Position numbers and translations under genes: made by a program. 36,023 nt of DNA from an uncultured Clostridia bacterium. Lineage in GTDB: Bacteria > Bacillota > Clostridia > Lachnospirales > Lachnospiraceae. This document shows, one piece after another, positions 24,387-27,120 of the stretch (within the stretch, counting starts at the first letter, position 1; each line of letters opens with the position of its first letter). Where the stretch lies: the NCBI GenBank assembly GCA_946401715.1, contig CAMIVF010000004.1, positions 1 through 36,023 on the forward strand, in the 5' to 3' direction. The notes under the pieces were generated by a model that saw only the letters and a list, made by a program, of their open reading frames with translations, did not search any database and was not told the origin of the DNA.

Positions 24387-25628
24387 TTATGTGAAAAGCT
24401 TTTCCTTTACAGCACATGCAATGGATATTCCTCCCTGACAGTATGGGATCAGTGTTGCCTGGAAAGCATGATACAGGTCATTCTTCCCCGGCCATACGGT
24501 ACCGATCACATGGTTTTCACGATCCATCTGATGGAACCAGGAACCATTCACATGATCCAGAACCTTTTCATCGAGGTATTCCATAAACTGTGCGTAATAA
24601 TCCGCGTATTCTTTCTTCCCGGTCACACGGTACAGGGTTGCGGCGGTATTGACCGCCTCTGCCAGCACCCAGTGCATCCGGTCATGAACCACGGGCCTGC
24701 CCGTCCAGTCTGTCGTATACACCAGCCCCGGGGCCCCGTCAACGTTCCACGCATCCGTCACCGCGCGCAGGAACAGCCGTTCTGATGCATCGATATACTT
24801 CGATGCATCTGCCTCTCCCTTCGCAGATGCCGACAAAGCCCACTGCGTAATCAGCCGGCTCCACTCAATCCCATGTCCTGGCGTCGCGCCGTACGGCTTG
24901 AACGGATCCGCCGGCCTGTCCTGATTCAGCTCCGGAAGCGGATTCCATGCGCTGTCATAGTGCTCCGGCAGCCTCCACTGAAACTCCTCTGCCCAGCCAA
25001 GCACCCGGTCGATCATCCGATGGCAGCGCTGCCTGTATTCTTCTCTTCCGGTCACGTCCGCAGCCGCAAGGAATGCCTCTACCGTATGCATATTGGCGTT
25101 CAGGCCGCGGTATTCATCCTGAACGGAAAACTCCGTATTCCAGGTATCACAGGCAAGCTGGTCCTTCTCGATCCAGAAGAAGCGGTCATATACCTCCAGT
25201 GCCTCCTCCAGAAGTTCCTTTGCCCCCGCTCTGCCTGCCAGAAGCGCCGAAGACGCCGCCAGGATCACAAAAGCATGTGCATAACACAGCTTGCCGGGAA
25301 GGGGCTTCCCCTCCGCGTCGATGCCCGCATACCAGCCACCATGCTGCGTATCCTTCAGTTCTCCCGCGAGACCCTTCAGTGCCGCGTCCGCCAGCTCTCC
25401 GCTCCCGGGATAGCCGAGGAAGGTCCCGATGCTGTAGACATGCGCCATGCGGCAGGTAATGAACGCCTCCCGCGGACGGTCTTTCCAGGGGGTTCCGTCA
25501 TCTCCGAGATAATACGCTCCCCCGCCCGGAGACGGGAACCGATGGCCAAACTGCAGCAGATCATCGGTCAGAGATTTCATAAACGCCCGGTTCTCGTCCG
25601 TATCAATCAGATACTTCTGTTCTCTCAT
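24387..25628 (-). CDS. AGE-superfamily aldose-ketose isomerase, YihS-like
   Basis: 413 residues, the same length as E. coli YihS, a mannose/sulfoquinovose isomerase of the (alpha/alpha)6 barrel N-acylglucosamine 2-epimerase superfamily. Active-site candidates are in register with YihS: R60 (ITCRMAHVYS), N177 and H181 (LNANMHTVEAF), H252 (GATPGHGIEWSRL) and H387 (KNDLYHAFQ). The likely reaction is reversible aldose-ketose isomerisation, for instance mannose-fructose; sulfoquinovose is possible, but no sulfoquinovose catabolic genes are present. Cytoplasmic. AAAGGAG lies ten nt before the ATG. The downstream MscS-like gene begins nine nt later, an odd operon partner. Confidence 0.88.
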   Translation of the reverse strand: MREQKYLIDTDENRAFMKSLTDDLLQFGHRFPSPGGGAYYLGDDGTPWKDRPREAFITCRMAHVYSIGTFLGYPGSGELADAALKGLAGELKDTQHGGWYAGIDAEGKPLPGKLCYAHAFVILAASSALLAGRAGAKELLEEALEVYDRFFWIEKDQLACDTWNTEFSVQDEYRGLNANMHTVEAFLAAADVTGREEYRQRCHRMIDRVLGWAEEFQWRLPEHYDSAWNPLPELNQDRPADPFKPYGATPGHGIEWSRLITQWALSASAKGEADASKYIDASERLFLRAVTDAWNVDGAPGLVYTTDWTGRPVVHDRMHWVLAEAVNTAATLYRVTGKKEYADYYAQFMEYLDEKVLDHVNGSWFHQMDRENHVIGTVWPGKNDLYHAFQATLIPYCQGGISIACAVKEKLFT

Positions 25629-25772
25629 AGCCCTCTCACTCCTTTATTATGCCCAGATACGCCAGCCCACTGCGCTGAAGTCCAAACAGACTTCCACCGT
25701 TCGATGCCATGGTACCATAACGCGGCTTTTTTATCCACTCTTTCATACAAGTTCCGGGCATCCCGGCACATT
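25629..25772 (-). other. leader region before the isomerase gene
   Basis: Gene-free. Holds a 6-bp hairpin GAAGTC/GACTTC (25677-25694), a perfect ATGGTACCAT palindrome, and a CCGGG-CAT-CCCGG hairpin (25754-25766) immediately beside the long inverted repeat. I do not find a convincing -35/-10 pair. Confidence 0.45.
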
Positions 25773-25962
25773 CCACGCCGGCCGGACGCTCCGAAGGCAG
25801 CCTATGCAAACAATAGGGAGCCGACCGAACTTTGCGAATTGCTGCCAGCGCGGAGGCGACCACGCTTCTATAGGAGCCGGGAGCGCTGGCAGTGCAACTG
25901 ATGCAAAGCGAGGGTAGGCGACCGTGTTTGCAGGCTGCCTTCGGAGCGTCCGGCCGGCGTGG
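25773..25962. repeat. 190-nt long inverted repeat with nested internal stems
   Basis: The outer arms pair over 37 bp with only a 2-nt bulge (left arm 25773-25811, right arm 25926-25962; each contains the GCCGGCCGGACG-type core or its complement). Inside, CTTTGC (25830-25835) pairs with GCAAAG (25903-25908), and CTGCCAGCGC (25842-25851) pairs with GCGCTGGCAG (25883-25892), in correctly nested order. AGGCGACC occurs twice in the unpaired parts. No target-site duplication is obvious at the ends. It could be a miniature mobile element, or a structured non-coding RNA or 3' UTR element of the reductase gene. Confidence 0.8.
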
Positions 25963-25995
25963 GTCTGGCTGCCGCGTGGACAGCGGGCGGGTTTG

Positions 25996-27120
25996 TTACA
26001 CCTCCAGCTTCGCCGCGGCGTCCTTCATCAGCGCGATGATCGGCAGATGCTGCGGACATGCGCCCTCGCACTGGCCGCAGGCGATGCAGTCGGATGCCTT
26101 GCCGCTCGATGTGGAAGCAAGCAGCCCCTTGTAGAATGCCCTGGGCCGGAATTCTTCGTTGTAAAGCGTCATGGTGTTGACAGCACGGAACACGTCAGGG
26201 ATGCTGATCGAGCTCGGACATCCGTCGCAGCAGTATCTGCAGGAGGTGCAGCCGATCAGCGGAATGTCAAGCATGATCGCCCTGACTTCGTCAAGAACCT
26301 GCTTTTCCTCTTCGCTCAAAGGTTCAAACGCGGTAAACGTCGAGATATTGTCCCGCATCTGTTCCTCGTTCGACATGCCGGAGAGAATCGTCATCACACC
26401 AGGAAGGGAGGCGACAAAACGGAATGCCCATGACGCAATGGATTTGTCCGGTCTTGCCTTTTTATACTTCTCCTCCAGTTCCGGCTTCAGGCTGGCGAGC
26501 GTTCCGCCCTTGACCGGCTCCATGACAATAATCGGAATCTTTCGTTCTTCCAGAATCCTGTACAGCGCTCCGGACTGTACGATCTGATTGTTCCAGTCTA
26601 TGTAATTGAGCTGAATCTGAACAAACTCCACCTCCGGATGCGCGTCAAGTACCTTGACAAGAAGTTCAGGGCTTCCGTGGAAGGAGAAGCCGAAATGCCT
26701 GATCTTTCCTTCTTTCTTCTTCTCTGCGCCCCAGCTGAAGCAGTCCAGCTTCTCATAGGTGTCAATATTGCCGTCTTCCACCGAGTGCAGCAGATAAAAG
26801 TCGTAATACTCCACGCCTGCGCGCTCCAGCTGCTCGTTGAAGATCCTGTCCCGGTCTGCCTTCTCCTTCATCTCCCAGGCAGGAAGCTTCGTAGCGATGC
26901 GGAAAGACTCTCTCGGATAGCGCTCAACCAGCGCCTTTCTCGCAGCGGCCTCGGAAAGGCCTCCATGGTAGACATAGGCCGTATCAAAATAGTTCAGGCC
27001 TGCTTTCATATACAGGTCCACCATTCTGGAAAGATGTTCGATGTCAATCTCATCATTTTTCTGCGGCAGTCTCATCAGGCCAAACCCAAGTTTCGGCATC
27101 TCACTGACGTTGATACTCAT
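25996..27120 (-). CDS. aldo/keto reductase with C-terminal 4Fe-4S domain
   Basis: 374 residues. The AKR barrel comes first, with the tetrad D46 and Y51 (FDTAYVYHGG), K78 (RIATKLP) and H112 (YLLHSVED). The C-terminal third carries ferredoxin-like cysteines in two groups: GCTSCRYCCDGCP and CIACGQCEGACP, enough for one or two 4Fe-4S clusters. This is the common COG1453-type oxidoreductase of anaerobes; substrates are usually unknown. An ideal AAGGAGG sits six nt before the ATG, and a strong dyad sits just upstream. It is separated from the isomerase gene by the long inverted repeat. Confidence 0.93.
   Translation of the reverse strand: MSINVSEMPKLGFGLMRLPQKNDEIDIEHLSRMVDLYMKAGLNYFDTAYVYHGGLSEAAARKALVERYPRESFRIATKLPAWEMKEKADRDRIFNEQLERAGVEYYDFYLLHSVEDGNIDTYEKLDCFSWGAEKKKEGKIRHFGFSFHGSPELLVKVLDAHPEVEFVQIQLNYIDWNNQIVQSGALYRILEERKIPIIVMEPVKGGTLASLKPELEEKYKKARPDKSIASWAFRFVASLPGVMTILSGMSNEEQMRDNISTFTAFEPLSEEEKQVLDEVRAIMLDIPLIGCTSCRYCCDGCPSSISIPDVFRAVNTMTLYNEEFRPRAFYKGLLASTSSGKASDCIACGQCEGACPQHLPIIALMKDAAAKLEV

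Follow-up and report, generated by a model that had tools for sequence, protein, structure and literature searches.

The hairpin at 25773-25962 of the window, by which we mean the whole 36,023-nt stretch of DNA analysed here, is probably a copy of a mobile element that is non-autonomous and forms a hairpin (broadly a MITE, and ERIC-like), with a core that appears to be under selection. The mobile-element reading is well supported, and comparative alignments give good support for a structural constraint on the core. A core hairpin of about 135 nt keeps its fold and its internal-loop sequences inside longer complementary arms that change fast; copies insert between genes and are, we propose, moved in trans.

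The outer arms (25773-25803 and 25932-25962) are complementary over 31 of 31 bp and are the sole strong inverted repeat found by an inverted-repeat scan of the 36-kb window. After a 2-nt offset the outer stem resumes for 7 bp (25806-25812 with 25925-25931), which is close to the 37-bp near-perfect arms described in the first-pass annotation. Nested inside, where ordered stems of 6 bp and 10 bp had been claimed, are stems of 7 bp (25830-25836 with 25902-25908), 4 bp (25839-25842 with 25894-25897) and 9 bp (25843-25851 with 25883-25891) and an apical stem (25855-25861 with 25873-25878), all in register, and the repeat that it saw in the loops is AGGCGACC, present at 25854-25861 and 25916-25923. 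As RNA, the 190-nt stretch folded at -142.3 kcal/mol, compared with -87.1 ± 4.6 kcal/mol for dinucleotide shuffles (z = -12.0), and 0 of 200 shuffles folded as well. The copy lies between two minus-strand genes, for an aldo/keto reductase with a 4Fe-4S domain (Aldo_ket_red, PF00248) and an N-acylglucosamine 2-epimerase (GlcNAc_2-epim, PF07221). The distances of 34 nt to the reductase stop and about 145 nt to the isomerase start were as first given (34 and 145 nt), and inspection of the window sequence agreed that a T run is absent after the stem at both ends. The features of the window copy, in order of position, are as follows.

24387-25628, minus strand: N-acylglucosamine 2-epimerase family gene (PF07221).
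25754-25759, no strand: left degenerate target duplication CCGGGC, weak (cf. CAGCGGGC at 25981-25988 and, in the G008 empty site, CAGTGCGGGT).
25760-25980, no strand: proposed whole insertion, 221 bp, with putative boundaries drawn from the element-free spacer of the sister genome G008 and the flanking degenerate direct repeats.
25773-25803, plus strand: left outer arm, 31 bp, 31/31 complementary to 25932-25962.
25801-25944, plus strand: conserved hairpin core with short flanks (covariance models R2 and R3, 161 and 153 bits; covariation).
25806-25812, plus strand: core helix 1, 5' side GCAAACA, pairing with 25925-25931 (fold, covariation).
25812-25822, plus strand: conserved motif AATAGGGAGCC, opposite GGTAGGCGACC across a GA-rich internal loop (near-invariant columns).
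25830-25836, plus strand: core helix 4, 5' side CTTTGCG, pairing with 25902-25908 (fold, covariation).
25839-25851, plus strand: core helices 5 and 6, 5' side TTGC and TGCCAGCGC, pairing with 25894-25897 and 25883-25891.
25855-25878, plus strand: apical part GGCGACC-ACGCTTCTATA-GGAGCC, used for the pattern scan; no other block of the family is as well conserved.
25913-25923, plus strand: conserved motif GGTAGGCGACC (near-invariant columns).
25932-25962, plus strand: right outer arm, 31 bp, pairing with the left arm.
25981-25988, no strand: right degenerate target duplication CAGCGGGC, weak.
25996-27120, minus strand: aldo/keto reductase gene with a 4Fe-4S domain (PF00248).

In the sister genome G008 both flanking genes are present, and only 14 nt separate the aligned flanks at the place of the window element; because the element is absent from this orthologous site, we regard it as an insertion. 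Degenerate direct repeats, CCGGGC and CAGCGGGC, flank the predicted 221-bp insert (25760-25980). Neither outer arm is present in the G008 spacer, so the arms either arrived with the element or formed after insertion, unless G008 has lost them. Empty sites, which the first-pass annotation had proposed to look for, were also found elsewhere: the site of L208, a copy in G018, is empty in G007, where the left flank is nearly identical as far as the target, and the element is missing from two further sites, in G012 and G000. At the L208 site a further genome carries another insert, roughly 94 bp long and also containing a hairpin (L358, G005:C15:10267-10362). An ordinary long intrinsic terminator or a chance palindrome of this operon would suit a position 34 nt past a stop codon, but the T run is lacking, the hairpin is missing in G008 with the same genes and the fold stands at z = -12; we consider this explanation scarcely credible, and homologues at unrelated loci refute it.

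Copies of the element are dispersed. Five were found in its own draft genome (73% complete), each on a separate contig and one truncated where its contig stops, and within the genus the core covariance model matched 11 of the 19 genomes. Multiple copies, another check proposed in the first-pass annotation, were thus found. The richest genomes of the genus were G010, with 65 matches, many of which were pieces cut by contig ends, and G018, with 28. In samples of the family, 11 further Lachnospiraceae genera carry the element, at one to dozens of copies per carrier genome, and many carriers came from the rumen. A class-level sample of 391 genomes, in which few candidates were scored per genome and weak copies may be missed, gave a match in the window's own genome only. 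The pattern of the apical part matched 106 stretches in public genomes, and every label among the matches listed was Lachnospiraceae or Clostridiales MAGs. Almost all placed copies (59/60) are intergenic, and the window copy is a dispersed repeat without coding sequence, as judged from the list of open reading frames. Together, the dispersed copies and the empty sites support the MITE-like insertion suggested earlier for this stretch, and a sister subfamily has IS66-type ends. Rfam gave no credible family match over the core, and phage and plasmid collections and viral contigs gave no match to the window copy. We found no description of this repeat family in the open-access literature, and one may exist elsewhere; the family is apparently undescribed so far.

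Several loci have particular arrangements. Many contigs of G010 (Reindeer_1_mag_103) start or stop inside the element, so the repeat probably accounts for much of the fragmentation of this assembly. Four tandem cores with a period of about 215 nt occur at L187 1069-1860 (G334:C31:4774-5569), just past the 3' end of an apparent 23S rRNA gene. L281 44-210 and L294 1-85, from unrelated genera, lie a few hundred bases from the Clostridiales-1 sRNA RF01699, possibly by chance. L020 202-404 is one core with about 60 additional apical bases, which are themselves foldable, and a tandem repeat of about 29 nt (GATCGATTGACCCATGCAATATCCATCCGG) adjoins the element in the right flank of L007. Diverging core pairs were considered as a composite element, which was rejected, as ordinary host genes lie in between.

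In one subfamily the mode of movement can be suggested from the ends. Copies in G010 and G018 and one copy in G012 share the terminal repeats GTTACAGTTCAC, also written GTTACAGTTCACAGG / GTTACnGTTCAC (GTTACAG type). The flanking 8-mers of 21 copies matched at 5.33 of 8 positions, versus 2.17 for permuted pairs (z = 10), and the signal was specific to 8 bp (lengths 4-7 and 9-12 all gave z below 3). Exact 8-bp repeats were found by script in three copies (e.g. AATGCGGA, CGTGAGTA) and by eye in L222 and L224, provided that a small indel is allowed there in the end repeat. Searching the genus for IS66 transposases revealed the element L324 in G006, with the ends GTTACTGTTCACACCC ... GGGTGTGAACAGTAAC; the MITE end GTTACAGTTCACA and the IS66 end GTTACTGTTCACA are identical at 12 of 13 positions, at both ends of L324. 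IS66 elements have been described with 8-bp repeats (PMC3281130), and their ends as beginning with GTAA (PMC11946415). Because of its 8-bp duplications and of ends like those of the IS66 element of the genus, the G010/G018/G012 subfamily is, on this sequence evidence, an IS66-type MITE, for which the mover would be an IS66-type transposase with an 8-bp target duplication.

No IS66 transposase was detectable in G010, the richest genome, the genus search turned up no autonomous element whose ends match exactly, and the IS66 elements found do not carry the core. Candidates for an autonomous partner drawn from single-end matches were rejected, those examined being core-deleted relics or pieces cut by contig ends. 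Core-deleted and solo-arm relics are present, as expected of a transposon family; the relics L310, L315 and L316 (G018, G010) have arms without the core or with another hairpin in its place. GTTAC ends were absent among the own-genome copies, and the window subfamily and the other subfamilies scanned had no consistent target duplication, the repeats of the window copy being degenerate; the window copy thus has neither the IS66-like ends nor the clean 8-bp duplication of an IS66-type MITE. We infer IS66 mobilisation for the window copy and its subfamily, which probably moved in the same or a comparable way. Since the insert folds back on itself in either reading direction, it would probably be tolerated in 3' flanking regions.

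The core, about 135 nt and conserved across genera, shows strong covariation in two alignments, and so the covarying base pairs proposed as a check on this stretch were found. We set the core structure by hand from a single-sequence fold, which replaced a poor RNAalifold consensus on a MAFFT alignment. When 29 copies were aligned by sequence only, both partners varied in 21 of the 39 pairs, such double changes filling 84 cells versus 28 ± 4 in shuffles, and pairing falls from 86% to 31-40% when the partners are slid. A second alignment, fitted to the model and therefore leaning towards the structure as the 29-copy alignment does not, covers 79 copies of 11 genera; in it 90% of cells pair, both partners vary in 39 of 39 pairs, and there are 537 compensatory cells versus 130 ± 9 after shuffling. 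Covariation is strongest in helices 5 and 6, where single pairs show as many as four Watson-Crick types. Unlike the covarying stems, the internal loops are constant in sequence across genera. These conserved loops and the cross-genus covariation exceed the needs of a MITE and argue against a MITE alone.

The folding of the two strands suggests that one of them is functional. Folded as RNA, the core strand was more stable than the complementary strand in 67 of 76 copies (8 opposite; mean 5.7 kcal/mol), and this advantage was seen in 12 of 12 lineage groups, which share ancestry. It is due to the loops, since the core strand does not have more G.U pairs than the complement. The alignment contains 132 G.U and 54 A.C cells, a single pair supplying 47 of the G.U. 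These comparisons favour one functional strand, which single-stranded DNA would fit equally; the core probably acts in single-stranded form, with RNA likelier than DNA, in the orientation that carries the GA-rich loops. An RNA function of the core is plausible, and its transcription is presumed. The structured-RNA reading of the first-pass annotation is supported in two respects, the conserved structure and the asymmetry of folding between the strands. Its other suggestion, a UTR element of the host, lacks support, because orientation relative to genes is unbiased: copies between tandem genes number 23 on the same strand and 18 on the opposite strand with a hexamer gene caller. An orientation bias seen with short flanks (19 same, 6 opposite) was dropped after longer loci gave 17/16 and the hexamer caller 23/18.

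The same evidence bears on a true structured ncRNA family, in which the core would be a functional RNA domain (protein binding, regulation) that unrelated elements merely carry in different genera. Constant loops with covarying stems across genera, the strand advantage in all 12 groups, the excess of G.U over A.C and the lineage-specific outer sequences (GTTACAG in G010/G018, GGAACACCCACTAC in G183) would all suit such a family, but copies have no preferred orientation relative to genes (23/18), Rfam gave no match, no associated protein gene was seen, and single-stranded DNA would give the same signs; we consider it possible but rather unlikely. Likewise rather unlikely is a portable structured-RNA domain that would have spread through Lachnospiraceae on several unrelated transposon ends, with RNA-level selection on fold and loops, for example as a recognition signal for a trans-acting protein, and with its DNA ends replaced.

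The outer arms differ from the core in their rate of change. In G218 and the window subfamily, cores are 87-90% identical between copies, and arms of different copies are 0.52-0.60 alike, versus 0.43-0.50 when shuffled; the two arms within one copy match at 0.82. Most arms of G218 resemble intrinsic terminators with A and T tracts, and the sister genome G340 has ordinary terminators near 3 of the 4 orthologous places compared. Both observations, with the 87% identical G218 cores and the site-specific arms that pair within a copy, would follow if the element entered the loops of existing intrinsic terminators, the variable arms being host terminator stems and the insert lengthening the hairpin. 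However, the empty G008 spacer holds neither window arm, the arms of the window subfamily have no T run, and the GTTACAG subfamily has arms of its own and 8-bp duplications, and we regard such entry as unlikely. The choice is between element arms that diverge fast with compensation and host hairpins that were entered, and the empty window site argues for the former.

In the flanks of L028 and L002 the inverted repeat extends past the arms into complete hairpins, which are near reverse complements of each other across the two sides. Neutral copy-correction of quasi-palindromes by template switching, which would keep pairing with no selection, would yield both this inverted hairpin duplication and outer arms that are copy-specific yet complementary. 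For the core it fails, because it would have removed the internal-loop mismatches, yet these are the most conserved part. Template switching may have shaped the outer arms; as the explanation of the pairing in general it is very improbable.

The mobile hairpin described here adds a dispersed family to the known bacterial repeats, and it combines mobility evidence in one subfamily with RNA-grade covariation of the core across genera, which is a rare pairing. It permits one to ask directly in which form mobile hairpins are selected, be it RNA, single-stranded DNA or merely a harmless fold beside genes, and it explains break points in some rumen Lachnospiraceae MAG assemblies. Its likeness to ERIC / IRU and other bacterial stem-loop repeats (PMC2267715) is one of form only: the host here is Lachnospiraceae, a subfamily has 8-bp duplications and IS66-type ends, and covariation was measured across genera, with constant internal loops. 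With IS66 insertion sequences it shares, in a sister subfamily, the GTTAC-type ends of the genus IS66 element and the 8-bp target duplications, but the family has no coding sequence, the core is absent from the IS66 elements found and the window subfamily is without GTTAC-type ends. REP/BIME repeats with RAYT (Y1) transposases are likewise palindromic, intergenic and present in many copies; however, REPs are 20-40 nt and Y1 chemistry is not expected to give 8-bp duplications, whereas the present element is 135-220 nt and one subfamily has such duplications. Intrinsic (rho-independent) terminators are also stem-loops at gene 3' ends, and the G218 arms have A/T tracts, but the window element is far longer, its homologous core is dispersed and the window copy has no T run. 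We assign the element to a new family of mobile hairpins, ERIC-like by form, with an IS66-type subfamily.
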